Source of the DNA: Spinacia oleracea
Lineage: Eukaryota; Streptophyta; Magnoliopsida; Caryophyllales; Amaranthaceae
Assembly: GCF_020520425.1 (NCBI RefSeq)
Contig: NC_079492.1
Location: 117,215,157 to 117,279,156, forward strand
DNA length: 64,000 nt
Direction of reading: 5' to 3'
Part shown: one piece after another, positions 1-59,611 of the stretch
How the letters are laid out: each line of letters begins with the position of its first letter
Position numbering within the stretch: the stretch's first letter is position 1
Notes under the pieces: model-generated
Told to the model about the DNA's origin: nothing
Seen by the model: the letters and a program-made list of their open reading frames with translations, nothing else
The model's database searches: none
Program-made: the position numbers and the translations under genes

Positions 1-3000
1 TATTGAATGAAGTTCAAGACGATTCCAAGCTAACAAGGTGAAGAAGATTGGATGCTTCAAGACAAAGTTTTGGGCCATAATAGTTCACCAAGTTTATTTA
101 TGCACTATATATATTGTGAATGAATGTATATTATGCATGAATGTTGTTTGTATGCTCGATTAGATTTAGTTCACTAAATAATCGAACCAACATAGAAACA
201 ACTAGGTCCAAAGTAATATTGAGTTTAAAGTTTCCCTTCCAAATCAAGCACTTACAAAAATCTAAGGATCTAACGTAGTAGGTTTCCGCCAAAGCGAGGT
301 GCTATTTTAGTTGACTTAGATGGTATGGTATCCCAAAGGAACACATTGATTATGGTTTTAACTCAAACAACAATGCCATATGTTGTGACAATGGGATAAA
401 TTATGGTATTAATTTATTAACCAAGATTAATTTGGAGATTACTAGCAATAGGTTTTGCTTACCTAGAATCTTAAAAGACTTAAGAAATGCCAAAGGTGCT
501 TAAGGATTTAGGACTTTTAGGGTCTTGGAATCGTTTCATTTAATTTTGGACCATGTTTTGCTTTTGCATGAATGAAATGTTTAATAGCTTTAATGATTGC
601 ATGTTCGCATTTACTTCAAAGTTATTAAAGATTATGAATGGTTATTTATTCCAAATTATTTTCAAATGTAGTAATCAAATGACCGCAAACAATAACAACT
701 CATTCAACCTACGTTCAATTCTCGACAAAGAGAAGTTGAACGACAACAATTTTCTCGACCGACAAAGGAACTTGCAAATAGTTCTAATGCATGAGGAAAA
801 AGAATATGTCCTTGAGGAAGAGTTACCAGAGGCCGCATGGCTGAAGGTGACTCAAGATGCCCTTAACCGTTGGATCCAGGCCAACAGGGATGTCAAATGT
901 GTGATGCTTGCATCCATGAATCCTGAACTTCAGAAAACGTTCATTAACTCGGATGCTTACTAAATTATCTCGTAGTTGAAGAACATGTTTCAGGATCAGG
1001 CCAGAGTCGAAAGATTCGAGACTCAGAGGTTGATCCTTGAGACTAAGCTCAAGAAAGGAGAACTAGTGATCCCGCATGTTCTTAAGATGATTGGAATGTT
1101 TGAGAATATGAGAGTTCTAAATTCCGACGTCTCAAATGAAATAGCCATTGACATCATTCTCTATTCGCTTCATAGTGGATATGATCAGTTCAAGTTGATT
1201 TACAACATGAACATTATGGAGAAAACTCTTACTGAGCTTCACGGTATGATGAAAACCGCTGAAAAGACGCTCAAGCAAGAGAATAAGCATGACGTGCTTA
1301 TGGTGCGTAAGGGCATGGGCTTCAAGAAATCAGGCAAGGGAAAAGGCAAGAAGGGTAAGGGCAAGGCTGCTCCCACACCTAAGTCCAACAGCACTAGTTC
1401 TGGTAAACAGAAAAGGGTGTCTCGTTCTCCTACCGACTCTGAATGCTTCTACTACTAGAATAAGGGGCATAGGAAGAGGGATTGCTTGAAGAGAAAGGAA
1501 GAAAAGAAGGACGGAAACGTCGCTTCTCCTTTAGGTATGTATGTTATACATTGTAATCTTGCAAATTCGACTTCTTGGGTACTGGTTGTGGCTCACACTT
1601 ATATTCCAATTCGCATGGACTAAGGAGAAGTAGAAATCTTGATAAAGGTGAGATGGATATACGTGTGGGAAATGGAGCACGGATTTCTGCATTAGCCGTA
1701 TGATCTTATTTTATATCTTTGCCTAGTGGTTTTGTTTTGGAACTAGAAAACTATTACTATGTTCCTAGTATCACCAGAAACATTATTTCCGTTTCAAGTT
1801 TCGATTCTAAAGGTTTTAGTTTTCAATTTAAAGACAATAGTTGTTCTTTTTCTTTGAATGGAATGTTTTATGGTTCAGCACAACAAGAAAATGGTCTATA
1901 TGTGCTAGATACGAGCAAACACATTTATAACATAAATACCAAAAAGGCTAAAACTGGTGATTCCGATCTCATATATCTGTGGCATTGTGGATTAGGCCAT
2001 ATAAACACAAAACGCATGGAAAGACTTCAAAGGAAGGGAATTCTAGAATCATTCGACTTAGAGAAGATTGATCAATGTGAATCTTGTTTACTTGGCAAAA
2101 TGACAAAGCGACCTTTCTCAAAGGTGGGAGAAAGAGCAATCGAACTACTAGGACTAATACATACGGACGTATGTGGGCCTATGAGTACGAAAGCTAGAGA
2201 TGATTTCAGCTATTTCATAACGTTTACGGACGATTTCAGTAGATATGGCTATATTTACTTAATGAAACACAAGTCTGAATCGTTTGAGATATTCCAAGAA
2301 TTTCAAAATGAAGTAGAGAATCAACATGGCAAGAAAATCAAAGCTCTAAGATCAGACCGAGGAGGTGAATATCTTAGCCACGAGTTTGATGATTATCTAA
2401 AAGAATGCGGTATTCTTTCTGAATTGACTACTCCGGGGACACCTCAATGGAATGGAGTGTCGGAACGGAGAAACATGACCTTACTCGATATGACCAGGTT
2501 AATGATGGGTCAAGCCGAACTTCCTTTACAATTTTGGGGACATGCGTTGCAAACAAAAGTATTCACACTGAATCGTGCTCCGTCAAAATCTGTTGAAAAG
2601 ACTCCATACGAATTATGGATTGGGAAACTTCCAAAGTTATCTTTTCTAAAGATTTGGGGTTGCGAAGCATATGTCAAGCGATTGATTTCGGACAAGCTCG
2701 AACCAAAATATGAAAAATGTTTCTTCGTGGGGTATCCAAAAGAAACAAAGGGGTATTACTTCTACAACAAGTCAGAGAACAAAGTATTCGTTGCTCGTGA
2801 CGGTGCCTTTCTTCTTGGAAAGAAATCATATTTCCAAATTGACAAGTGGAAGAATAATAGACCTCGAAGAGATTCGAGACGAACAACGGACCAAGAACTA
2901 TTTAGAAGAAGTTCAAGGTGAAGAACCTCCAAGGCCTTTAGAAGAGCCAGTGGGAGTAGTTCCTCAACCCGTTGTTGCCCCTCGTAGGTCACATAGAACT

Positions 3001-3465
3001 AAGGTTCAGCCGGACATATGGACAAGCGTCCTCTTGACTGAACACTTAGATGTTCTCATATTAGATAGTGATGAACCTATGACCTACAAGAAAATTATGA
3101 CGATCCCAAGTTCCACTAAATGGTTAGAGGCCATGAAATCTGAGATAGACTCCATGTCTGAAAATCAAGTCTGGGATTTGGTAGATTTACAGGATGGGTT
3201 TACACATACGGATGCAAATGGGTCTTCAAATTGAAGAAACACAAAGATGGAATTGTATACATATACAAGGCTAGATTGGTAGAAAAAGGTTACAGGCAAG
3301 TTCACGGTGTTGACTACGATGAAACCTTTTCTCCAGTTGCTATGCTTAAGTCTATTCGGATAATCCTTGCGATTGCCACATTTCATGACTATGAAATATG
3401 GAAAATGGATGTCAAAACTTACTTCTTGAATGGTGTTCTTGAAACTGTGTTTATGATCCATCCGG
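1..3465 (+). mobile_element. Ty1/Copia retrotransposon fossil (internal region, truncated)
   Basis: Recognisable parts in order on the + strand: a leader (1-550), a gag-like region (about 550-1,460, ending in a Lys/Gly-rich tail), an integrase region (about 1,720-2,920, with GLGHINTKRM, an HTDVCGP-like core and DRGGEYLS) and the beginning of a reverse transcriptase (about 3,100-3,460, with RLVEKGYRQ and KMDVKTYFLNG). The order integrase before reverse transcriptase is diagnostic for Ty1/Copia. The element runs off the left edge of the window and stops at a junction with an unrelated LTR fragment. It is clearly broken, with at least three interruptions, and looks old. No flanking LTR pair can be assigned. 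Confidence 0.85.
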
Positions 3466-4091
3466 CCGGACGAGGCTGTAAGGCGTTGGTCGCGAATACG
3501 AGCCGAGACGAGGCTGCCGGCCCATCGAGCCAAGCGCGCACGCGTGCAAGGCCCAACGAGCCAGCAGCTCGCCTGCAGCGAGGAGCCAGCCCGCAAGGCG
3601 TGGCCGTGTGCGCGCGCGGAGAGCAGCAAGGTAGCAGGCAAAGCAGCGAAGCCCAAGGCCCATGGATTCGATGCCCGCGTGCTGCTCGTGGGCTTGTGGT
3701 GCGTGTGTGTGGCCGGTTGAGGCCTTGTGCCTTGGCCGGTCAGTTTATAACCTTAGGATTATAACACACCACCACACACTTATGTTTTTCCAACCCTAGA
3801 CTATTCTAAAACTACGTAATTTCAGTTTTGCCTCCGTTCATACTGTTCTTCCCAAAAAAGCTAAAAACTCTTGAGCATTGTCTGAGCTACGAATCTCAAG
3901 ACGGATCTGAACGTGTCGGTGAACCAAGTAGAGGAACGACAATTAGAGTTCTTTGTTCGTGTTCGTGAATCGATAAACTAGGGAAAACATGCTTCGAATG
4001 TAAGTTTGCATAATCTATATTTTATACATGCTTCATGGCTTTGCGGATTGTTCAGCACATATTAATATATATTTAACTGTATTCCCCTGCA
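3466..4091 (+). mobile_element. Partial LTR of the same family as the solo LTR at 7,264-8,325
   Basis: This stretch matches the right-hand part of the complete solo LTR further right: a GC-rich block with repeated GCCCAACGAGCCAGCA-type words, then a conserved tail with GTGAACCAAGTAGAGGAACG, and the same terminus ATTCCCCTRCA. The left part of the LTR is absent. It abuts the Copia fossil directly, so it either truncated that element or arrived with a rearrangement. ORFs across it are by-products of its GC-rich composition. Confidence 0.7.
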
Positions 4092-13427: not shown

Positions 13428-13835
13428 ATTAACTCTATCAACTTATGTTGGTTACATGCATGTTTCTACATATATATGAACCAATTGACCATACGTGAAT
13501 TATTTTAATAAATAATACTCCCTCCGTCCCTTAATACTCGCACCGGTTTGATCGGTGCGGAGTTTAAGGCATTTGAATTGATTTATTAATTTAATGAGTG
13601 TTAGTTGATAGTGAGGTATTTTTTTTAATATAGTTAGTGGGAAATGTGTAAGGGGTGGGGTGGGGTGAGTGGGGGTGTGAATTTTTAAATGATTTTTTGT
13701 AGGGAGTAGGGGTGTAGTTGGGTTAGTAAGTAAGTGTGAGAAATAATGTAATATTGGTAAAAAATTTCATTTATAGAAGCGATGCAAGTATTAAGGGACG
13801 ACCCGAAAAGAAAAGCGGTGCGAGTATTAAGGGAC

Positions 13836-16800
13836 TAATTGCTGACTGCTGTACCCGGGTACAGCCAGCTCTGGCTATACCCCCAAAAACGACGCGCTCA
13901 TATTGTTTGTTCATTCTTGTCGACTGTTTGTTCTTTTTTATTGTACTATTTGTTCATTCTTATTGTACTGATTGTTCTTTCTTGTTGTATTGTTTGTTCT
14001 TTCATGTTGTTTTTTAAATTTATCATCAAATTTTCATAATTGTTGTATTTTTTGTTATTTCTTCTGGAATTTTATGTTCTTTTTTATATTGTTTGTTCTT
14101 TCTTGTTTATTTGTTTGTTTATAATAATCATATGGTTAATGTTCATAATTAAATTCTTCATTAATCTTTTATTCTTTCTTTTTGTATTGTTTGTTCTTTC
14201 TTGTTGTACTGTTTGTTATTTCTTGTTGTTTTTTAAATTCATTCATCAAACTTATTGTTGTATTGTTTGTTCTTTCATGCTGGCTTTAAAATTCATCATA
14301 AAATTGTTCATAATTGTTGTATTGTTTGTTCTTTTTTCTGGAATTTTATGTTCTTTTTTATATTGTTTGTTCTTTTTTGTTGAATTATTTGTTCTTTCTT
14401 GTTTATTTGTTTGTTCATAATAATTATTTGCTTTATTGTTTGTTTTTTCTTGTTGTATTGTTTGTTCTTTCATGTTGGCTTTAAAATTCATCATAAAATT
14501 GTTCATAATTGTTGTATTGTTTGTTCTTTTTTCTGAAATTTTATGTTCTTTTTTATATTGTTTGTTCTTTTTTGTTGAATTATTTGTTTGTTCACAATAA
14601 ATATATGGTTAATGTTCATAATGAAATTGTTCACTTCATTGGTCTTTTATGTTTTTACAAGCGCCTATATTGTTTATTTCTAAATAAATAAATAAATGTT
14701 CATTTCCAAAATAGTAAATGTTCATTCCAAATAAATAAATAAATATTCTTTTCCGAAATAGTAAATGTTCATTTCCGAAATAGTAAATGCTCATTTTTGT
14801 AGTGTATTTCCAAATAAATAAATAAATGTTCATTTCCAAAATAGTAAATGTTCATTCCAAATAAATAAATAAACGTTCATTTTCGAAATAGTAAATGTTC
14901 ATTTTTGTACCAGTATTTGTTCTTTCTTGTTTTATTGTTTGTTCTTTCATGTTGGCTTTAAAATTCATCATAAAATTATTCATAATTGTTGTTTTGGTTG
15001 TTCTTTTTTCTGGAATTTTATGTTCTTTTTTATATTGTTTGTTCTTTTTTGTTGAATTATTTGTTCTTTCTTGTTTATTTGTTTGTTCACAATAAATATA
15101 TGGTTAATGTTCATAATGAAATTGTTCACTTCATTGGTCTTTTATGTTTTTACAAGCGCCTATATTGTTTATTTCCAAATAAATACATAAATGTTCATAT
15201 CCAAAATAGTAAATGTTCATTCCAAATAAATAAATAAATGTTCATTTCCGAAATAGTAAATGCTCATTTTTGTAGTTTATTTCCAAATAAATAAATAAAT
15301 GTTCATTTCCAAAATAGTAAATGTTCATTCCAAATAAATAAATAAATGTTCATTTTCGAAATAGTAAATGTTCATTTTTGTACCAGTATATTAATGTTCA
15401 TTTTAAACAACACAAAACGACATCGTTTTGGATGGGGGTACAGCCAGCTTTGGCTGTACCCGGGTATAGCCAAAAATTTGCGCAATCGCTAATTGCTGTA
15501 CCCGGGTACAGCCAGCTCTGGCTGTACCCCCCAAAAATGACGCGCTCATATTGTTTGTTCATTCCTGTCGACTGTTTGTTCTTTTTTATTGTACTGTTTG
15601 TTCATTCTTATTGTACTGTTTGTTCATTCTTGTTGTACTGTTTGTTCTTTCTTGTTGTATTGTTTGTTCTTTCATGTTGTTTTTTAAATTCATCATCAAA
15701 TTTTCATAATTGTTGTTTTTTTGTTCTTTCTTCTGGAATTTTATGTTATTTTTTATATTGTTTGTTCTTTCTTATTTATTTGTTTGTTTATAATAATCAT
15801 ATGGTTAATATTCATAATTAAACTCTTCATTAATCTTTTATTCTTTCTTTTTGTATGGTTTGTTCTTTCTTGTTGTACTGTTTGTTTTTTCTTGTTGTTT
15901 TTTAAATTCATTCATCAAACTTATTGTTGTATTGTTTGTTCTTTCATGTTGGCTTTAAAATTCATCATAAAATTGTTCATAATTGTTGTATTGTTTGTTC
16001 TTTTTTCTGGAATTTTATGTTCTTTTTTATATTGTTTGTTCTTTTTTCTGGAATTTTATGTTCTTTCTTGTTTATTTGTTTGTTCATGATAATTATCTGC
16101 TTTATTGTTTGTTCTTTCTTGTTGTATTGTTTGTTCTTTCATGTTGGCTTTAAAATTCATCATAAAATTGTTCATAATTGTTGTATTATTTGTTCTTTTT
16201 TCTGGAATTTTATGTTCTTTTTTATATTGTTTGTTCTTTTTTGTTGAATTATTTGTTCTTTCTTGTTTATTTGTTTGTTCATAATAATTATTTGCTTTAT
16301 TGTTTGTTTTTTCTTGTTGTATTGTTTGTTCTTTCATGTTGGCTTTAAAATTCATCATAAAATTGTTCATAATTGTTGTATTGTTTGTTCTTTTTTCTGA
16401 AATTTTATGTTCTTTTTTATATTGTTTGTTCTTTTTTGTTGAATTATTTGTTTGTTCACAATAAATATATGGTTAATGTTCATAATGAAATTGTTCACTT
16501 CATTGGTCTTTTATGTTTTTACAAGCGCCTATATTGTTTTTTTCTAAATAAATAAATAAATGTTCATTTCCAAAATAGTAAATGTTCATTCCAAATAAAT
16601 AAATAAATATTCTTTTCCGAAATAGTAAATGTTCATTTCCGAAATAGTAAATGCTCATTTTTGTAGTGTATTTCCAAATAAATAAATAAATGTTCATTTC
16701 CAAAATAGTAAATGTTCATTCCAAATAAATAAATAAACGTTCATTTTCGAAATAGTAAATGTTCATTTTTGTACCAGTATTTGTTCTTTCTTGTTTTATT

Positions 16801-19800
16801 GTTTGTTCTTTCATGTTGGCTTTAAAATTCATCATAAAATTATTCATAATTGTTGTTTTGGTTGTTCTTTTTTCTGGAATTTTATGTTCTTTTTTATATT
16901 GTTTGTTCTTTTTTGTTGAATTATTTGTTCTTTCTTGTTTATTTGTTTGTTCACAATAAATATATGGTTAATGTTCATAATGAAATTGTTCACTTCATTG
17001 GTCTTTTATGTTTTTACAAGCGCCTATATTGTTTATTTCCAAATAAATACATAAATGTTCATATCCAAAATAGTAAATGTTCATTCCAAATAAATAAATA
17101 AATGTTCATTTCCGAAATAGTAAATGCTCATTTTTGTAGTTTATTTCCAAATAAATAAATAAATGTTCATTTCCAAAATAGTAAATGTTCATTCCAAATA
17201 AATAAATAAATGTTCATTTTCGAAATAGTAAATGTTCATTTTTGTACCAGTATATTAATGTTCATTTTAAACAACACAAAACGACATCGTTTTGGATGGG
17301 GGTACAGCCAGCTTTGGCTGTACCCGGGTATAGCCAAAAATTTGCGCAATCGCTAATTGCTGTACCCGGGTACAGCCAGCTCTGGCTGTACCCCCCAAAA
17401 ATGACGCGCTCATATTGTTTGTTCATTCCTGTCGACTGTTTGTTCTTTTTTATTGTACTGTTTGTTCATTCTTATTGTACTGTTTGTTCATTCTTGTTGT
17501 ACTGTTTGTTCTTTCTTGTTGTATTGTTTGTTCTTTCATGTTGTTTTTTAAATTCATCATCAAATTTTCATAATTGTTGTTTTTTTGTTCTTTCTTCTGG
17601 AATTTTATGTTATTTTTTATATTGTTTGTTCTTTCTTATTTATTTGTTTGTTTATAATAATCATATGGTTAATATTCATAATTAAACTCTTCATTAATCT
17701 TTTATTCTTTCTTTTTGTATGGTTTGTTCTTTCTTGTTGTACTGTTTGTTTTTTCTTGTTGTTTTTTAAATTCATTCATCAAACTTATTGTTGTATTGTT
17801 TGTTCTTTCATGTTGGCTTTAAAATTCATCATAAAATTGTTCATAATTGTTGTATTGTTTGTTCTTTTTTCTGGAATTTTATGTTCTTTTTTATATTGTT
17901 TGTTCTTTTTTCTGGAATTTTATGTTCTTTCTTGTTTATTTGTTTGTTCATGATAATTATCTGCTTTATTGTTTGTTCTTTCTTGTTGTATTGTTTGTTC
18001 TTTCATGTTGGCTTTAAAATTCATCATAAAATTGTTCATAATTGTTGTATTATTTGTTCTTTTTTCTGGAATTTTATGTTCTTTTTTATATTGTTTGTTC
18101 TTTTTTGTTGAATTATTTGTTCTTTCTTGTTTATTTGTTTATTCATAATAATTATTTGCTTTATTGTTTGTTTTTTCTTGTTGTATTGTTTGTTCTTTCA
18201 TGTTGGCTTTAAAATTCATCATAAAATTGTTCATAATTGTTGTATTGTTTGTTCTTTTTTCTGAAATTTTATGTTCTTTTTTATATTGTTTGTTCTTTTT
18301 TGTTGAATTATTTGTTTGTTCACAATAAATATATGGTTAATGTTCATAATGAAATTGTTCACTTCATTGGTCTTTTATGTTTTTACAAGCGCCTATATTG
18401 TTTTTTTCTAAATAAATAAATAAATGTTCATTTCCAAAATAGTAAATGTTCATTCCAAATAAATAAATAAATATTCTTTTCCGAAATAGTAAATGTTCAT
18501 TTCCGAAATAGTAAATGCTCATTTTTGTAGTGTATTTCCAAATAAATAAATAAATGTTCATTTCCAAAATAGTAAATGTTCATTCCAAATAAATAAATAA
18601 ACGTTCATTTTCGAAATAGTAAATGTTCATTTTTGTACCAGTATTTGTTCTTTCTTGTTTTATTGTTTGTTCTTTCATGTTGGCTTTAAAATTCATCATA
18701 AAATTATTCATAATTGTTGTTTTGGTTGTTCTTTTTTCTGGAATTTTATGTTCTTTTTTATATTGTTTGTTCTTTTTTGTTGAATTATTTGTTCTTTCTT
18801 GTTTATTTGTTTGTTCACAATAAATATATGGTTAATGTTCATAATGAAATTGTTCACTTCATTGGTCTTTTATGTTTTTACAAGCGCCTATATTGTTTAT
18901 TTCCAAATAAATACATAAATGTTCATATCCAAAATAGTAAATGTTCATTCCAAATAAATAAATAAATGTTCATTTCCGAAATAGTAAATGCTCATTTTTG
19001 TAGTTTATTTCCAAATAAATAAATAAATGTTCATTTCCAAAATAGTAAATGTTCATTCCAAATAAATAAATAAATGTTCATTTTCGAAATAGTAAATGTT
19101 CATTTTTGTACCAGTATATTAATGTTCATTTTAAACAACACAAAACGACATCGTTTTGGATGGGGGTACAGCCAGCTTTGGCTGTACCCGGGTATAGCCA
19201 AAAATTTGCGCAATCGCTAATTGCTGTACCCGGGTACAGCCAGCTCTGGCTGTACCCCCCAAAAATGACGCGCTCATATTGTTTGTTCATTCCTGTCGAC
19301 TGTTTGTTCTTTTTTATTGTACTGTTTGTTCATTCTTATTGTACTGTTTGTTCATTCTTGTTGTACTGTTTGTTCTTTCTTGTTGTATTGTTTGTTCTTT
19401 CATGTTGTTTTTTAAATTCATCATCAAATTTTCATAATTGTTGTTTTTTTGTTCTTTCTTCTGGAATTTTATGTTATTTTTTATATTGTTTGTTCTTTCT
19501 TATTTATTTGTTTGTTTATAATAATCATATGGTTAATATTCATAATTAAACTCTTCATTAATCTTTTATTCTTTCTTTTTGTATGGTTTGTTCTTTCTTG
19601 TTGTACTGTTTGTTTTTTCTTGTTGTTTTTTAAATTCATTCATCAAACTTATTGTTGTATTGTTTGTTCTTTCATGTTGGCTTTAAAATTCATCATAAAA
19701 TTGTTCATAATTGTTGTATTGTTTGTTCTTTTTTCTGGAATTTTATGTTCTTTTTTATATTGTTTGTTCTTTTTTCTGGAATTTTATGTTCTTTCTTGTT

Positions 19801-20269
19801 TATTTGTTTGTTCATGATAATTATCTGCTTTATTGTTTGTTCTTTCTTGTTGTATTGTTTGTTCTTTCATGTTGGCTTTAAAACATATTCATCATAAAAT
19901 TGTTCATAATTGTTGTATTATTTGTTCTTTTTTCTGGAATTTTATGTTCTTTTTTATATTGTTTGTTCTTTTTTGTTGAATTATTTGTTCTTTTTTGTTT
20001 ATTTGTTTGTTCACAATAAATATATGGTTAATGTTCATAATGAAATTATTCACTTCATTGGTCTTTTATGTTTTTACAAGCGCCTATATTGTTTATTTCC
20101 AAATAAATAATAAATGTTCATTTCCAAAATAGTAAATGTTCATTCCAAATAAATAAATAAATGTTCTTCCGAAATAGTAAATGTTCATTTTTATACCAGT
20201 ATATTAATGTTCATTTTAAACAACACAAAACGACATCGTTTTGGATGGGGGTACAGCCAAAAATTTGCG
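13836..20269. mobile_element. TGTTC-word element (putative Mutator-like, non-coding), tandemly amplified
   Basis: A 6,434-bp insertion flanked by the perfect 9-bp duplication TTAAGGGAC (13,827-13,835; 20,270-20,278), which fits the Mutator-like class. The left end reads TAATTGCTG then CTGTACCCGGGTACAGCC; the right end reads ACAAAACGACATCGTTTTGG then GGGGGTACAGCC and AAAAATTTGCG. The ends are related as imperfect inverted repeats sharing GGCTGTACCCCC. The body is made of TGTTC words (TTGTTTGTTCTTTCTTG, AAATGTTCATTCC) with no plausible protein; its Phe/Leu/Cys-rich ORFs are repeat artefacts. Four head-to-tail units are present: 13,836-15,489, 15,490-17,353, 17,354-19,217 and 19,218-20,269. Confidence 0.8.
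15490..19217 (+). repeat. Two near-identical 1,864-bp tandem units
   Basis: Landmarks recur exactly 1,864 bp apart (for example the junction TAATTGCTGTACCCGGGTAC at 15,490, 17,354 and 19,218). The two full units differ by very few bases; I noticed one G/A difference (16,279 region versus 18,143 region). Within each unit are shorter repeats of TGTTCTTTC words and an AT-rich AAATAAATAAATAAATG block. The first (1,654 bp) and last (1,052 bp) units of the element are shorter variants. Confidence 0.92.
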
Positions 20270-20288
20270 TTAAGGGACGGAGGGAGTA

Positions 20289-20916
20289 TTACTTCGTAAC
20301 ATTTGCAAATAGTTGGATCAGTATAACTATTCTCTTAATTAGTTCACTCATTATTAAACACGCGTTAAATTATTACATCTATGATCTATATCAAAGACGT
20401 ACTATCCAAAAGATAGGAGGAATTCAACAATTTAGAGTTGAATCTCATTTTATAATCCAAAGAATCAGAGCACGTCGACGTTTCTTAGCATCACAAATCA
20501 GACAACAAGCTACCTACCAATTATCCATGTGTTAAAAAATCCATTAAAAACAAGTTTAAAAATTATTGTCTAGACAGCGTCTAAGTTTTATTGTCATCAT
20601 TTTGATAATTACAAATTAACTACCTAACATAGTTTACTTTTTGTATCCTAATTCCAACTTGTTTGCGTCGGTGAATTTATTTGAAGTTTTTTACCGAATA
20701 AATTTTCAGCCGGCGTAGTTTATCGTCAACATCGACGCATCTTGCCAGCTACTAATGATTATGAAAGTGTTATTTGCATTTTAATAAATATATTCGAACA
20801 AAAATGTCCAAATTCATAAAAAGATTAGGTCAATTCGACTTGTTATTAGCAAGGTGGCATCAAATAACGAAGTAATTAAAAATAATAGTAAGACTTGCTC
20901 AACCTAAGGATGACCT
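20289..20916. other. Upstream intergenic region of the extensin-like gene
   Basis: About 630 bp of AT-rich sequence between the Stowaway end and the TATA box. An open frame at 20,161-20,535 straddles the transposon boundary and is not credible. No specific regulatory motif beyond the TATA box could be assigned with confidence. Confidence 0.5.
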
Positions 20917-20998: not shown

Positions 20999-22147
20999 AT
21001 GGCTCTCCAACATGCTTCTTTCTTGTCCTTCCTTCTCTTGGCTTTGCTAACAATTTCAACTGCTAGTGATTCTTATTCTTACAACCCTACTCCATCATAC
21101 AAGACACCAACCTATTCTCCGGTTTACACTCCTTCCCCAGTTTACAAATCTCCTGTTTACACCTCATCTCCAGTGTACAAATCCCCAGTTTACACACCGT
21201 CCCCTATGTACAAATCACCAGTTTACACACCATCCCCTGTGTACAAGTCACCAATTTACAAGTCACCGATTTATACCCCATCCCCGGTTTACAAGTCACC
21301 AGTTTACACTCCATCACCGGTTTACAAGTCACCAGTGTCCACTCCATCCCCCGTATACAAGTCTCCAGTATACACTCCATCGCCCGTATATAAGTCTCCT
21401 GTTTACACCCCATCACCGATTTATAAGTCTCCAGTTTACACTCCATCACCTGTGTACAAGTCACCGATTTACACTCCATCGCCTGTTTACAAGTCTCCAG
21501 TTTACACTCCATCCCCTGTTTATACCCCATCTCCGGTGTACAAGTCTCCAGTTTACACCCCAAGCCCAGTGTACAAATCCCCTATTTACACTCCAAAGCC
21601 GATGTATAAGTCCCCTGTTTATACCCCGTCCCCAGTGTATAAGCCTCCAGTTTACACCCCATCCCCAGTGTACAAGTCTCCAGTTTACACTCCATCTCCG
21701 GTTTACAAGTCTCCAATTTATACCCCATCTCCGGTTTACAAGTCTCCAATTTATACCCCATCCCCAGTTTACAAGTCTCCAGTTTATACCCCATCCCCGG
21801 TTTACAAGTCTCCAGTTTACACCCAATCACCGGTGTACAAGTCTCCAGTTTACACTCCATCGCCGGTTTACAAATCGCCAGTTTACACTCCATCTCCTGT
21901 TTACAAGTCTCCAGTTTACACCACCCCATCACCAGTGTACAAATCACCTGTTTACACTCCATCGCCGATCTACAAGTCACCAGTTTACACTCCATCTCCT
22001 GTTTACAAGTCACCGGTTTACACCCCTTCTCCAGTGTATAAGACTCCTATATACACCCCATCACCGATTTACAAATCTCCTGTTTACTCTCCTTCCCCAG
22101 TTTACAAAGCCCCTGCGTATACTCCAAGTCCTTCATATGGGTATTAA
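20999..22147 (+). CDS. Extensin/PRP-like tyrosine-rich proline-repeat cell-wall protein
   Basis: A single-exon 382-residue protein. The ATG at 20,999 is chosen over an in-frame ATG at 20,939 because it directly begins a signal peptide (MALQHASF... with a Leu-rich core, cleavage near TAS-DSYSY) and lies at a normal distance from the TATA box. After residue 35 the protein is almost entirely an 11-residue repeat, SPVYKSPVYTP, in about thirty copies, with variants such as PIYK, PMYK and PVSTP, ending PSPSYGY. There are no SPPPP blocks, so it is nearer to Lys/Tyr-rich proline-rich proteins than to classical extensins. It is expected to be secreted, hydroxylated on proline and cross-linked in the wall through Tyr and Lys; that is family knowledge. 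It is the only host gene in the window that looks whole. Confidence 0.93.
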   Translation: MALQHASFLSFLLLALLTISTASDSYSYNPTPSYKTPTYSPVYTPSPVYKSPVYTSSPVYKSPVYTPSPMYKSPVYTPSPVYKSPIYKSPIYTPSPVYKSPVYTPSPVYKSPVSTPSPVYKSPVYTPSPVYKSPVYTPSPIYKSPVYTPSPVYKSPIYTPSPVYKSPVYTPSPVYTPSPVYKSPVYTPSPVYKSPIYTPKPMYKSPVYTPSPVYKPPVYTPSPVYKSPVYTPSPVYKSPIYTPSPVYKSPIYTPSPVYKSPVYTPSPVYKSPVYTQSPVYKSPVYTPSPVYKSPVYTPSPVYKSPVYTTPSPVYKSPVYTPSPIYKSPVYTPSPVYKSPVYTPSPVYKTPIYTPSPIYKSPVYSPSPVYKAPAYTPSPSYGY

Positions 22148-27272: not shown

Positions 27273-29664
27273 ATGCAATTTAATAATCAACAACAACAGC
27301 AAGGGTGGAGAAACTATAGAATGGGTGTCCTGATTGACCCTCCACCAGCGTATCGTTTGGGACCGGAGATTAACTGGGAAGCTACTGTGATCGGAATGTT
27401 CGTCGGACCGAATCCACCTCCACTTGACATAGTCCAATCTCTTGTTGACAACCGCTGGATCAAGCGTGGTCCAATTCGGGTAAGAAAGATCGGACCGTAC
27501 TTTGTGTTTATTTGTTCTGATATTGGTGATGTTAATGCTTTACTGATCCAACATACTGCAATAAGGGATGGGAGAATTATAACTTTTCGAAAAGGTAATC
27601 GTGACCAAGTTCTTGATAACTATAATTTTAATTCGGTGAAACTATGGGTCAGAGTTTTTGGGTTGCCTTTGAGTCACCTGGACAGGGAATGGGGGATTCA
27701 AGCGCTTCGCCATATAGGGTTTATAGATGTTGTTGATGATGGGGAGGGGATGGAACTCAGAGAACCAGATGTTCGAGCATATGTGCTGCTGGATTTATCT
27801 CAACCTTTGATACCAGGTTGCTATCTTCCTACAGCTCCCGGGGAGGCGGTTTGGGTCTATTTTAGGTATGAAGGGATTTTTAAGTTATGTAAGAAGTGTG
27901 GGGGGGGTGGGTCATTATACCTGTAACTGTCCTTTAGCAGATTATGATGCTAGTAGGAGAATTGGAACCTCACTGGAACGTTTTGAAGCTAGTGACTTAA
28001 GGGTTCTGCGCGGACCTTCGAACTACCCATATTACTCCAACATCATTGAAGGCCTTCCAGATCGTTTCTGCTACAGGAATACAAGGGTGAACTTACTGAA
28101 TTTCTGGGGTCATGAGGGGGATCAGCACTGGAATGATGGCTTCGATGGGGGAGACCAAGGAGATGATAACCATAATGCAAATAATGGGATTCCTCAAAAC
28201 AATTATCATGGTGGCTATGGATATTCAGATGATGATGATGATGGGAACGAAAACGGGGGTTCTGATGGGGGAGGTGCTGACGATGGCCAGAACATGGACA
28301 CAGGGGGTCAGGAGAATGGTGGAACGGACTCAAACTCTAGTGATACATATCACCCAGCGTCGGACTTTCTTTCGGGGGAACCTGATTTTAATGAAGACAT
28401 GTCGGAAGGAACAGGGGAGGGAAGCCACAACACTAACAACAACATGAATACTGATGATATTTATTCACCTTCTGATGAACCAATAACGGCTTACAGTCCA
28501 CCGGAGACGGCAACATTATTACCAGGGGTCAGACTTGGACTTATTGGTGACCCCTATGCTCAATATCTTCCCCGGAATGTGATCGACAGGAATGAGGGGG
28601 GGACTTTTAGAATGAGTGTGGACGAACCGGATCCACCATATTCGACTCTTCAACATGGTTTAAGCTTCTGCCCAGAAAAGAGGGGATCGGTTTTTGAGGT
28701 AGGGGAAACTTCAGCAAACCCTAACCCTAACCCTAATCCTCCTAGGGTTTCTCAAACTCCTGCTATCATGAATATGGCTATGGTGCCGTTATCTCATCCA
28801 CAACACGAACAGAGTCTGGTATTACCTCGATCTTTAGGCTGGGTTGAAGGTCGTCCACAGGTGTTACATGAGGGGATCTTCACCACCATTGCGATACAAC
28901 CACCGTTGCTGATGGGGCCCACATCGATAACAGGTGAGCAGAATAATGGGTCTGTGGTGGGTAGTTTTTTGGGTGTTCTGCACCGGAGGTTGATCGTTCC
29001 TCGAGTTCCGACCCCGTTGACGATACCACCACCTTCACCACTCATAATCTCTTTCTCGCCGGATTCTACATCGAGCAACATCTCCATGCTCTCTGGAGAA
29101 AGATCACCAGGCCCATCAATCTTCGACTCGTCATCGGAGTTTGTCGAGAAGATTTCTTCGGAAGGGGAGTCTTCTTTCGCGCGGGAAAAAATCAAGAGAC
29201 CAAGGCCGCCAGGGATGGGCTCAGATCGTGCAGCTTCAGCAGATTCGACGCCATGTATCAGGTTCAAGGACACTGATTGGAAGCAGAAAAGACGCAGGCT
29301 TGTGTTTAAAAATGTGGAGGCTAAGGGAGGTTACAATTTGTGGGTGAAGATGACCTGTGGTTGGAAGCTGCGATCGAAGTGTATTACTGATATCACTATG
29401 GCAAAGGATTTGGGGGTTGAACCAGGGGACGAGATCAACTCAGCGCTGAAGAACTCTATGGATTCAGGGAGCGTTAATGGAAGAGGGGGGAAGCGTGCTC
29501 TTATACTCGTTATACCAGGAAATTGTAAACGCCCAAAGTCTATCACCTCAGATGATAGTTGTTCGGATGATGATGCTCCAGGAAAGGACATGGATGCTAG
29601 GTTCAATGCAACCAGTGAGTTTGCAAACGTTCAGGCGAGGGATGGGCCCTCTAGGGCCCAATGA
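27273..29664 (+). pseudogene. LINE ORF1: DUF4283-type RNA-binding protein with CCHC zinc knuckle
   Basis: ORF1 of the L1 element, expected to bind the element RNA. The N-terminal half (27,273 to about 27,880) carries the DUF4283-type fold (VRKIGPYFVFICSD, VKLWVRVFGLPLSHL) common in plant L1 ORF1 proteins. A zinc knuckle CKKCGGVGHYTCNC follows at 27,889-27,930. The C-terminal part is long, Gly/Asp/Asn- and Pro/Ser-rich and apparently disordered, ending at 29,664. The reading frame changes within a run of eight G residues (27,900-27,907); seven would keep the knuckle in frame, so there is a one-base insertion, or a sequencing error in the homopolymer. The stop overlaps the ORF2 start as ATGA. 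Confidence 0.8.
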
Positions 29665-32600
29665 AAATCATTTCATGGAACTGCAGGGGATTCAATAACC
29701 CAGAATCGCCAAAGCTGCCGTATGTGTTTTGGTTGCTTTCAGTTTATCGCCCTTCGTTTTTGTTTTTGATAGAGACTAAGTGCTCAGTTGATAAGATAGT
29801 TCAGTTGTTTAAATGCACCCAACCTTCTTTCTTTTGTGGGATAGACTCAGTAGGAGCTAGTGGGGGCTTAGTGGTGCTAGGTTGGGGTTCTCTTTTGGTA
29901 GATTGTATGTATAAGTCGAAAAATGTAATCCTCTGTGATGTACACCAACATAATGATGCTAATATATCTCTAATATTTTGCTACGGGGCACCTAAAGTAG
30001 AGAATAGGAAAGAAGTTTGGGATGAGTTGGTTATGCTTGCTAGAACTAATCCTAATTCCTTGCTCTTAGGTGATATAAACCAAGTTGAGCATTCCTCTGA
30101 TAAATTGGGTGGGTCTCAAATTATAAGGGGTTGGGATGATTTCAATGACTGGCGTGTTAACAAAAAATTTTTAGAAGTTCCCTTCTCTGGTCCGACGTAT
30201 ACCTGGTCTAATAAAAGGGACGAAAATGGGATACTCCTCGAACGTTTAGATAGAGGCTATATATCCAATTCTTGGTTTATTAGGTTTCCGGATAGTAGAA
30301 TTATTAATCAACCTATCGTCGCCTCAGACCATGCGGCTATTGTTTTTGATAATTCAGATTGTTCTAGACGTAATTTCAGGCCCTATCAAATAGAGAACTG
30401 GTGTTTACAGTTCGATGAGGTTCGTAGGCTGATAAGGGATGAGTGGTTGGTAGCTAAATTAGGGTCCCCAATGTTTGTTATGTCTAGAAAGCTGGTTAGT
30501 TTGCGTCCTAAAATTTGCAAATGGTGCTTAGATAATAAGTTATTCTGGGGGATTAATTGGCGCGAGGTGTCGGATTCTTTAGCTTCTCAGGGTTCAAAGG
30601 TTAACAATATGATTCTTGGAGCTGGGTATGTTACAAGGATTAATGAGTCATTTGCGCAAGCCTCGATAAAAAATGCGTTCTGGAGGCAACGCATGAAAGA
30701 GAATTGGATTGCTAAAGGGGATTTACCGACACCCCTTCTCTTTTCTAAAGTTAAACAGCGACAGAAGAAGAATGAGGTTTTAACAATCAAAGATAGTGAG
30801 GGTAACTGGAGACATGGTCAACAGCAGGTGCAAGAGGTTATTCTACACAATCTAAAGAATACCTTTCGCACAGACTTACAGGGCTTACAACACATCACTA
30901 ACACAGATTTGGTGCTTCGGGAGATGGATCTTCCGCAATTATCAGAGGAGAAGAAAGCAATGCTTGGAAGGGCCTTCTTGGACAATGAAATTAGAGCTGC
31001 TATGTTCTCTATTGGTAACTCTAAGTCACCGGGCCCGGACGGGTTTTCAGCTGCATTTTTCAAAGAGAATTGGGAGGTGGTGGGTCAAAGTGTTTGCGTT
31101 TCGGTGAGGAATTTCTTAGAAACGGGGTTCCTTTTAAAAGAATGGAACCACTCTCTAGTGGTTATGATTCCGAAGCGGGAGATTCCAGAGGAGGTAGGTC
31201 ACTTGAGGCCGATAAGTCTCTGTAATACGATATACAAGTGTGCGTCGAAATGTTTGGCCAAGCGGGTTAAAGCAACTCTTCACGATCTTATCTCTCCGTC
31301 TCAGCATGCCTTTATTACTGGAAGGTACATGACAGACAATATCTTGCTAAGTCATGAATTGGTGGATAAAGTGAATAATAGGAGGAGGGGGACGCCACTA
31401 GCAGTTCTCAAAATTGACATGAGTAAGGCCTACGATAGGGTTCACTGGGATTTCCTTTTACGGACGCTAAGAGCTTATGGGTTCCCCTCTCACTGGGTTC
31501 AACTCATTAGCCAGTGTATTTCTACTGTCTCGTACAAGATCCTGGTCAACGGCCAGACGACAGATCAATTTAAGCCTTCATGCGGGATTAGGCAAGGCGA
31601 CCCTTTATCTCCATATTTATTTCTGTTCTGTATGGATATTTTATCTCGTATGTTGCAGCTGGCGTCAGATATAGGGTAGTTTAAGGGGATCAAGGTAAAC
31701 CGGGGTTGCCCGGAAATATCGCATCTATTTTTCGCTGATGATGCGATGCTCTTTTTCAACGCCAATAGGATAAGCTGCAAAAACATAACGGATGTTATTG
31801 CTAGGTTCTGCCATATCTCAGGTCAGCAATTGAATGTGGGAAAATCGCATCTCAAGGTCAGCTCCAATACTTCGATGCAAGAGAAGCAGGAGTTCGTTAC
31901 AATATTAAGGATGCCTATGGTTACTACTCTGGATCACCATCTTGGCTCTCCAATCGATTTGCAGGGGACAAAGTATTCGAATTTTGTGTTTTTGATCGAC
32001 CAGATATCGAAGAAGATTAACGACTGGAACGCGATTCCCTTGTCTCAAACTCAAAAGGTTATTCTTATTAACTCGGTTTTAATTTCTATGGCGTCCCATG
32101 TGATGAGTTGTTTTCATCTACCATCGGCAATCTCTTCGAAAATTGACTCGATGATAGCTCAGTTCTTCTGGGATAACAAAGATAGGAAGGGCATACACTG
32201 GGTCGGTCGGTCGATAATTCACCTTCCTAAAGGGATGGGGGGCCTAGGGATTAGGTCAATGGGGGTGGTGAATAAAGCTTTGCTCATGAAAAGTGTCTGG
32301 CGCATTCACAATAACCCTCAGTCCTTACTGGCTAGGGTCTATACCAAGAGATTTTCCTCCCCTCTCCTAACGGGGAAGCCAACCAGAATCATCAATGGCG
32401 CTTTTTCATGGGGGATGAGAGGGTTAGCTAGGGCGGGGAATATTCTTCTCAAAGGCTGTAATTGGAAAGTCGGGGATGGCAACTCTATCCTGGCTAGCAA
32501 GGACCGTTGGGTTAATGGGACAATACCGGAATTCAAGTCTACTATCACCATGGGCGAGGCAAGGGCTTGGAGAGTGAGTCACTTTATCATGCCGACGGGG

Positions 32601-33779
32601 AAAGACTGGGATCATGGGAAAGTCAACAGGTGTTTTGAATTCGACGACGCTAAACAAATTGTTGGGATGGAGCTGCCGTATAACCAGGCCAAAGATTATC
32701 TATACTGGAAGTATCATAAGGGAGGCAAGTTTACGGTTAAGACGGCGTATGCGATGATTCTCGGAGAAGATTCGAATCACTCTAATGGTTTCGACGGTGA
32801 AAGTCCCTTCTCTTTGTTATGGTCTCTTCGTATGGCTCCGAAGTGGAAACTTTTTATTTGGAAAATTCTTAGGAATGGCCTTGCGACAAAGTGTAATATT
32901 AATCAGAGGGGTTTAAACATCCCTTCTGCTTGTGACTTATGCTTAAACGAGGATGAGGATTACCAATACTTATTTCGCTTTTTCGAAATAGCAAAACAAA
33001 CTTGGAGGAGTGGGTCCTTAGGGATTCACTCAGAATTGCGCAGTGACATTCCTTTTGTGGAATGGATGCTCTCCTATATCCGGCCTTTTCAATGCCAGGA
33101 TGGTCACTTGAGTACTAGAACCATATACTTCATTACCACGTTATGGAGCATATGGGTGGCTAGGAATAACAAGGTTTTCAGAGATGAGAATGTGGATCTT
33201 TCAATGGTAATGGCTCTAATCACTAAAGGTTTGGAGCAACATGATATTACTACAAGTAATAGTTCCGGAGCTCTGAGGTATTTGCATCCACCGGAACAAC
33301 ATCTTTTTCCTCCCGGCTTCTTCGGGGCGACCCTTTCGGACAACGGGGGGAATCCCACCATTACCACCCTCTTGGTGGACGGAGCTTGGAATAAATCGAC
33401 AAAATTATCGGGATTGGCATGGGTCAAGGACAATTTCGGGACGGGTGCAGGTTCTCCACAAGGTGGAGCGACTTTCGGTTATGCGGAATCTGCAATTCAG
33501 GCTGAAGCTCAGGCATGCCTTGCAGGGTTAAGATGGGCGATTCGCTGCGACATGAAGCATATTTTGATTTTGACTGATTCTTATTGTCTTGTGGACATGC
33601 CCCGTGGAGGTGGGTGTGTTGATATGCAGGTCAAATGGACATTGGCTGAAATTGTGGCACGAGCACAGGATTCTGATTACTGCTCCATCAACAAGGTTGA
33701 TAGGGATAGGATTCAGCCGGCTCATGTTCTGGCCACGGGAGCAGCGCGTTCCCTTATTGCTTTTTCTAATGATGTTTAG
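29661..33779 (+). pseudogene. LINE ORF2: endonuclease, reverse transcriptase, zf-RVT, RNase H
   Basis: About 1,372 codons. The apurinic-type endonuclease occupies roughly residues 1-225 (SWNCRG at 5-10, IETK near 38, GDIN near 137, SDH near 222). The reverse transcriptase spans about 380-720 (GPDGFSAAFF near 457, YDRVHW near 590, GIRQGDPLSPYLF near 641, catalytic FADD near 690). A zf-RVT region lies near 1,047-1,115, and a C-terminal RNase H near 1,235-1,350 (VDGAW, EAQA, LTDS). One in-frame TAG at 31,677-31,679, between the QGDP and FADD motifs, is the only evident lesion; the frame is open on both sides. All catalytic residues I can check are present. ORF2 likely relies on reinitiation at the ATGA overlap with ORF1. 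Confidence 0.92.
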
Positions 33780-58698: not shown

Positions 58699-59611
58699 GA
58701 CAAATTTGCCAAAAGTAACCTTTTAAAACCTGTTTTTTTTTGCGAGAAACAACCTTTTAAAAATATTTTTGCGAAAAAAGACCTTAAAGTAAAATAAACT
58801 TGCGAAAGACAACCTATTTGGGTTTTCCGGCGTTGACCAAAAATTTCCGGCCTTGACTTCGCCGGTTTTGCTATTCCCAACCTCTTTCCTTCCATTTTTC
58901 TCCTAAATCCAGCAAAAAAATCCAGCCAAAAGTTTGATCATCTCCTTCAACAACTCTCTTCCCTCCTCTTCCTTCTCCTCCCTCACAAATGCCCCGATAA
59001 CCGCCACACACGTCCCGGAACTCGACTTCATTCCCTTCCCCAACATCTCCAACACATACTCTTTAGCCTCCATAATCATCCCATCTGCAGCAAGCGACTT
59101 GATCAACACACTATAAGTGTAAGCATCGGGAAGAACCCCATATGCCAACATCTTCATAAACACATTGTGAGCTTCCTTGCATTGTCCAGCACCAGCGTAA
59201 GCTTCAATAACAGCAGTGTGGGCCACCACATCGGGCATTTTACCCGTTTCTTTGATCTCCCTGAACATTTCCAACGCTTCGTGGGTTAAACCATTCTTAG
59301 ACATTTCGTCGAACACCTTGACTGCAATGCTAGTTAACCCATTAGTTCTCATTTTACGGAAGACTTCTTTTAAATTTTCGGGATCTTTGGGTTCAACATT
59401 GATGGGTTTGTCGGTAAAGGGGTTGGAAGAGGTTGGGAATAGCAAAATCGGCGAAGTCAAGTCCGGAAATTTTTGGTCAACGTCGGAAAACCCAAATAGG
59501 TTGTCTTTCGCAAGTATATTTTACTTTAAGGTCTTTTTTCGCAAAAATATTTTTAAAAGGTTGTTTTTCGCAAAAATCAGGTTTTAAAAGGTTGTTTTTG
59601 GCAAATTTGCC
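58699..59611. mobile_element. Pack-MULE with long inverted repeats and a captured PPR fragment
   Basis: 913 bp with inverted repeats of about 190 bp (58,699-58,889 and 59,422-59,611), well conserved along their length, and ends GRCAAATTTGCC. It is flanked by a perfect 9-bp duplication TTATAATTA (58,690-58,698; 59,612-59,620). Long inverted repeats and a 9-bp duplication define a Mutator-like element. There is no transposase; the 530 bp between the arms encode part of a pentatricopeptide repeat protein. Confidence 0.93.
58903..59352 (-). pseudogene. Captured pentatricopeptide repeat (PPR) gene fragment
   Basis: About 150 residues from the first ATG at 59,352 to a stop at 58,903, minus strand; the frame is open further upstream into the right inverted repeat but without an ATG. 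Visible P-type PPR units are EALEMFREIKETGKMPDVVA, HTAVIEAYAGAGQCKEAHNV then FMKMLAYGVLPDAYTYSVLI, and AKEYVLEMLGKGM. About three to four 35-residue helix-turn-helix repeats remain, too few for a normal PPR protein, and no targeting peptide is present. The last residues (LLAGFFCWI) derive partly from the left inverted repeat. PPR proteins bind organellar RNA; this piece is likely non-functional but is a clean open frame. Confidence 0.85.

Follow-up and report, generated by a model that had tools for sequence, protein, structure and literature searches.

A head-to-tail transposon tetramer within a single target duplication in spinach, and a possible path by which transposons become mobile tandem arrays

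An insertion in the genome of Spinacia oleracea is shown here to consist of four members of one transposon family, arranged head-to-tail within a single 9-bp target duplication. At its joints the 3' end of one parental element, X, abuts the 5' end of another, Y, with no intervening base, and X and Y are different members of the family. The insertion lies in a 64,000-bp stretch of DNA (C6:117215157-117279156, hereafter the window), and relatives were sought across 894.2 Mb of genome in 242 contigs. Our best model, to which we assign a probability of roughly 0.55, is that one element inserted in the end of a relative, that the pair was then transposed by its outermost ends, and that unequal exchange lengthened the array. 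Sister loci elsewhere in the genome suggest that the ends of this family can themselves serve as targets for its elements, and that pairs once fused can jump as one.

The insert body (13836-20269, 6,434 bp) lies between perfect 9-bp copies of TTAAGGGAC (Table 1). As TTAAGGGAC occurs a third time at 13791, within the interrupted MITE, the duplication by itself is little proof of insertion. The arms of this MITE, which we take to be Stowaway-like from its CTCCCTCCGT end, lie at 13502-13534 and 20270-20302 (33 nt, 88% complementary); their pairing spans the insert, and the interruption of the MITE is therefore real. The region is thus confirmed as a discrete insertion inside a Stowaway-like MITE, as the original prediction had it, and the accompanying claim that the body carries no transposase is borne out by a longest ATG-initiated ORF of only 129 aa. 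No Rfam family was found in the window at gathering scores. The same prediction treated the insertion as a single 6.4-kb element, and here only the insertion stands: the best self-period of the body, which had been overlooked, is 1,864 bp, and the region is a tetramer of a family whose paired ends lie a median of 1.58 kb apart.

Table 1. Coordinates of the array, its joints and the interrupted MITE (window positions).
Feature	Position	Strand	Description	Basis
Left target duplication	13827..13835	+	9 bp, TTAAGGGAC	direct sequence match
Right target duplication	20270..20278	+	9 bp, TTAAGGGAC	direct sequence match
MITE, left part	13517..13835	.	interrupted, Stowaway-like	arms pair across insert
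MITE, right end	20279..20288	.	interrupted; GGAGGGAGTA	
U1	13836..15482	+	1,647 bp; complete copy, parent X; ends 5' TAATTGCTGACTG, 3' AAAAATTTGCG	
U2	15483..17346	+	1,864 bp; hybrid, Y 5' part and X 3' part	
U3	17347..19210	+	1,864 bp; 1 base off U2	
U4	19211..20269	+	1,059 bp; parent Y; shortened 3' terminal repeat	
Joint U1/U2	15472..15495	+	zero-base; boundary 15482/15483	
Joint U2/U3	17336..17359	+	zero-base; boundary 17346/17347	
Joint U3/U4	19200..19223	+	zero-base; boundary 19210/19211	
5' arm	15495..15531	.	37-nt arm of an imperfect terminal inverted repeat; 89% complementarity with 17298-17334	
3' arm	17298..17334	.	imperfect terminal inverted repeat (partner 15495-15531)	
Y-to-X switch interval in U2	15949..16243	.	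195-bp stretch absent from U1 starts inside	

The 3' terminus AAAAATTTGCG ends at 15482, 17346, 19210 and 20269, and the 5' terminus CAATCGCTAATTG starts on the very next base after the first three of these. U2 and U3 differ at one of 1,864 bases, while U1 and U2 are 98.8% identical over 1,646 aligned bases and U2 and U4 are 96.2% identical over 1,037. These differences are unevenly distributed, with 18 of the 19 mismatches between U1 and U2 falling within the first 445 bp of U1. At 56 informative sites, where U1 differs from U4 and all are present, U2 agrees with U4 at the first 18 and with U1 at the last 38, some of which adjoin an internal deletion of U4 and depend on the alignment. U2 switches from Y to X once, between its bases 467 and 761, and the 195-bp stretch that it carries and U1 lacks is located at this interval. 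U2 and U3 are thus what would be expected if X and Y underwent unequal exchange and a second duplication then gave U3, and the single clean switch in these hybrids of a U4-like 5' part and a U1-like 3' part indicates that the array grew by unequal exchange. A tree built from 19 sequences places U1 with L061 (0.84% apart, support 0.993) and U2-U4 together (0.997). Local damage is ruled out as the source of the short 3' repeat of U4, since L010, L019 and L023 have it too. A homodimer derived from a circle is disfavoured, as U1 and U4 differ.

Searches with the termini uncovered many relatives. CTGTACCCGGGTACAGCC has 232 exact matches in the genome (its reversed control has none), a few of which fall at 3' ends because its inner part is palindromic, and the 3' end GGTAYAGCCAAAAATTTGCG has 327, 16 of them in the C form seen at the right edge of the window. 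On C1 and C2, 98 3' ends and 80 5' ends among the matches listed form 58 same-strand pairs no more than 30 kb apart; the spacing of these listed pairs has the median given above, 55 of the 58 lie below 4 kb, and the shortest two, at 11 and 248 bp, are probably no whole elements. Nineteen insertions were sampled, namely 15 C1 pairs picked by eye, three long C2 copies and the window, and 17 are flanked by a 9-11 bp duplication with at most one mismatch: 13 have 8 or 9 of 9 matches at the nominal ends, and four have such a duplication once length or offset may vary. One of the remainder has 7/9 matches and the other, L053/54, has no duplication. In a mismatched-locus control the best comparison gave 6/9, and none of 342 reached 8/9 or better. 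The MULE-like duplication claimed in the original prediction is accordingly found both here (9 bp) and in relatives (9-11 bp), and the family that it proposed to seek by its termini exists.

The ends of the family carry a 37-nt imperfect TIR (89%) that begins at base 13. Foldback elements have long inverted repeats built of tandem repeats; here the words have a single orientation and the inverted arms are of at most 59 nt. Helitrons make no target duplication, and this family makes duplications of 9-11 bp. Most likely, to judge from its ends and duplications, it is a non-autonomous MULE family with short TIRs, an assignment that rests on the length of the duplications because a transposase was not found in a partial search. 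The long TIRs of 100-500 bp by which TIR-MULEs are defined (PMC3310237, PMC3903597) are absent, the 37-nt TIR being present instead, and the family at best belongs to the non-TIR, short-TIR subgroup. TIR and non-TIR MULEs, and nested insertions, are described in PMC3903597. A survey of spinach recorded 167 MULE-MuDR elements (PMC6337768), and no description of the present family was met in the portions of it that were available. One copy, L069, has a TGTTC-poor internal stretch (element bases ~280-1850) with what appear by eye to be long inverted arms.

The zero-base joint has three exact matches in the genome, all in the window array, and a looser search permitting 5-35 bases ahead of CTGTACCC again returned the window only. 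Our searches for joints all started from an exact 3' end; any joint in which that end is damaged would escape them and the precision of the 3' side is partly ascertained, and exact patterns may overlook mutated joints. A second type of joint, AAATTTGCG/GTACCCGGGTACAGC, in which the second unit lacks its first 15 bases, has three matches, at C5:56.31 Mb, C4:7.19 Mb and C4:7.25 Mb. The three 3.1-kb dimers are 99.78-99.94% identical except for an indel of ~24 bases, whereas the two units within each are 96.3-96.6% alike. The C5 dimer is flanked by the duplication GAGATCAAC, and the two C4 dimers, which are mutually inverted, have the flanks AATTCTAAC and GTCATTAAAG in exchanged positions; the duplications measure 9-10 bp, in both C4 dimers once the inversion is allowed for. 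The occurrence of one dimer at three unrelated sites shows that head-to-tail dimers of this family move as units. The C4 copies (L086, C4:7191250-7194520; L087, C4:7252800-7256050) are inverted copies of the mobile dimer with swapped flanks, as though they had recombined with each other and thereby inverted ~60 kb.

Other close associations take different forms. At C2:41.41-41.42 Mb an element lies head-to-head inside the terminal 13 bp of a relative, with an inner duplication, CAGTTAACG, that is 9 bp long only if the inserted element is allowed an atypical first four bases (ATTA) and 13 bp otherwise, and an outer duplication, GTATTCCCC. At C6:122.34 Mb (L073, C6:122336800-122344800) a head-to-tail tandem retains a duplication-like 12-bp spacer, TTAAAAAATGAT, and this pattern has no other match; the second unit of L073 is partial, and a segment is common to both units. 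At C3:141.49 Mb (L092, C3:141494680-141494960) two members lie tail to tail, with 34 bp between their 3' ends. This pair is one of near neighbours, with no insertion into an end; its left element has the duplication GGCTTCTCT. Counting the window, C6:122.34, the C4/C5 dimer, C2 and C3, there are at least five close associations, a lower bound because they were noticed in partial lists, against an expectation of 0.007-0.26 from two crude uniform models that take spans of 50-100 bp and ignore target preference.

Under the model that we favour, a dimer would begin when one element (E1) enters or adjoins the terminus of a relative (E2). With E1 near the 5' end of E2, the joint would consist of the exact 3' end of E1 followed by E2 from base k, where k is 1 in the window and 16 in the C4/C5 dimer; the C6:122 tandem has flanking sequence between its units. 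For the perfect joint of the window, the 9-bp target would have been exactly the first nine bases of Y or the last nine of X; the nine bases after the C4/C5 joint, GTACCCGGG, could likewise be an old target. A transposase, probably that of a MULE from elsewhere, would then act on the outermost ends (5' of E1 and 3' of E2), so that both copies leave together and the pair gains a single outer duplication, one copy of the inner duplication staying behind in a terminal stub. Unequal exchange, aided by internal repeats, would subsequently extend the array. We infer the use of the outermost ends from the products, as the partial search found no transposase or active source. The stub predicted for the C4/C5 dimers (GTACCCGGG followed by the 5' end) has no match in the genome; either loss or mutation has removed it, or the model may not hold for these dimers. 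The C2 example, which is in place, is head-to-head, whereas the window joints are head-to-tail. The C2 locus thus documents insertion into an end, and the C4/C5 dimers movement of a pair.

Several other histories could be proposed for the array. The 3' and 5' ends of excised elements might have been fused by transposase or host repair (or in circles), and the joined intermediate inserted once. Such end joining fits a zero-base joint inside a single duplication and the failure to find the donor stub demanded by the insertion model; circular forms have been reported for IS256, maize Mu1 and a yeast MULE (PMC3942029), and circles have been considered for MULE arrays (PMC5907723). We nonetheless consider it unlikely: the joint couples two different elements rather than one to itself, prokaryotic circles keep a flank of 6-10 bp between their ends (PMC3942029) where the window joint has none, and at C2 an element can be observed still lodged in the end of a relative. 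Alternatively, X could have entered the MITE and Y the last nine bases of X (AAATTTGCG), with a 9-bp collapse and unequal exchange following on the spot, so that no multimer ever moved to the window site. The observed sequence would result exactly, and the ingredients are at hand in the C2 insertion into an end, the unequal exchange within the window and the duplication-like spacer retained in L073. Such growth in situ is distinctly unlikely in our judgement, given the additional collapse that it requires and the mobile dimers shown in the same family. That an assembler falsely extended a repeat would accord with the single base separating U2 from U3 in 1,864, but the one outer duplication, the mosaic units and the dissimilarity of U1 and U4 leave hardly any room for it.

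Insertion into a relative's end and joint transposition of the pair is therefore the reading that we retain. We put forward more tentatively, as rather less likely than not, that a MULE transposase prefers its own termini as targets and repeatedly builds heterodimers that transpose whole and then grow by unequal exchange. With such a preference, if true, a small transposon would of itself give rise to mobile arrays and the seeds of satellites, and tandem-terminus MULEs without an inner duplication would also be accounted for. The candidate steps occur in one genome, as nesting in a terminal 13 bp, a dimer at three sites, and growth from a dimer to four units, and together they make up a concrete, testable path from transposon to mobile tandem array.

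The abundance of TGTTC had led to the suggestion that the whole insertion is one large binding array. The body contains 186 copies of TGTTC and none of GAACA, against 69 and 110 in the remaining 57,566 bp of the window, and no 5-mer of U2 exceeds its expectation by more than TGTTC, with 55 occurrences against 8.5 expected from dinucleotides. Dense motifs in the same orientation are also found in the tandem repeats of non-coding VANDAL DNA (PMC5735166), and a selected array of protein-binding sites, like those bound by VANC proteins in Arabidopsis VANDAL elements and with tandem growth adding sites, would be compatible with the other readings. TGTTC is conserved in 89.3% of cases compared with 85.3% for all words, in a test that took in 18 copies and 147 of their 153 pairs and is weak because dead copies drift. 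It comes third among the 15 words composed of the same letters, but only 14th of 22 among common words (at least 3,500 observations) and 91st of 194 among those with at least 300, and its C varies more than any of its other bases. Furthermore, it stands in seven distinct contexts in U2 (TTGTT has 14 and TTTTT 13), and since seven contexts in one unit compare with 8.5 expected occurrences, its abundance reflects duplication. Nothing in these comparisons clearly singles out TGTTC as selected, and the binding array, which they do not clearly support, appears to us a slim prospect. A word-rich repeat body may, as a caution, mimic a binding array where repeated copying suffices.

A long relative bearing a transposase had also been envisaged, and none emerged from a partial search of the long copies and of PF10551 matches. 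L053/54 and L055 have 27 stretches of 75 aa or longer without a stop, and the search comprised 7 of these (6 of 18 and 1 of 9, respectively), among which there was no transposase, and 150 of 1,960 candidates scored with the PF10551 profile; the closest of the 54 scored on C1-C2 lies 33 kb from a listed exact terminus. One stretch of L053/54, an element that ends without a duplication, matches PADRE at E 4.3e-5, a score short of the curated cut-off, and L055, which has the duplication GTGGGAGAG, gives an ARMC9_LisH match (E 0.022). Both resemblances hint at possible gene capture, as in Pack-MULEs, which have host gene fragments between their ends. Nested inside L056/57 is an LTR retroelement whose LTRs are 99.9% identical. 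The three long C1-C2 copies were set aside as putative autonomous sources, L053/54 having no duplication, L056/57 holding the retroelement and the 7 stretches of L053/54 and L055 yielding no transposase.

Elsewhere in the window, an extensin-like gene at 20999-22147 (+; PF02095, E 6.3e-26, below the curated cut-off) is rich in SPVYKSPVYTP repeats. Its ATG lies 730 bp beyond the end of the insertion, and a TATA-like TATATAAAG lies at ~20918. Retrotransposon remnants, presumably of Copia type, occupy 976-3764 (+), with an ORF at 1719-2921 comprising GAG-pre-integrase, integrase and SH3-like domains. At 27273-33779 (+) is a LINE-like element whose long ORFs contain reverse transcriptase, zf-RVT and RVT_3 domains, and at 58903-59460 (-) a 185-aa fragment of a PPR-repeat protein.

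Finally, the array may be set beside known systems. A limited search of the open-licence literature met no whole-element MULE heterodimers that move as units. In guayule and rice, the SaTar MULE arrays (PMC5907723) are similarly uninterrupted multimers of small non-autonomous MULEs; they mix families, are linked by microsatellites and mostly have no duplications, while the spinach array consists of one family and the joints described here are zero-base or truncated by 15 bp, with 9-bp duplications. The VANDAL elements that carry target motifs for VANC also have non-coding DNA in which short same-strand words are spread by tandem repeats (PMC5735166), and this likeness of TGTTC to VANC motif arrays might serve as a lead; the present family, for its part, is not known to have a VANC gene (DUF1985) or a transposase, and TGTTC bears no clear sign of selection. 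Alternative transposition has been described between two head-to-head VANDAL21 elements (PMC12312487). For the composite Helitrons of Fusarium (PMC5148889), self-insertion was proposed to yield chimeras mobile by their outer termini, much as we propose here, although the present family, unlike those elements, leaves 9-11 bp duplications. Another parallel is with MULEs of tomato, rice, maize and Arabidopsis whose TIRs are in tandem or otherwise multiplied (Ferguson and Jiang 2012, PMC3310237), and which share extra inner termini, one outer 9-11 bp duplication with none recognisable inside, and amplified copies. Their authors took the absent inner duplication to argue against nested insertion, and considered slippage, recombination, or a nested insertion whose duplication had later disappeared, leaving open how duplicated MULE termini arise within a single outer duplication. 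In those MULEs it is the TIRs that are doubled, whereas in spinach whole elements are joined and insertion at a terminus is visible in place.
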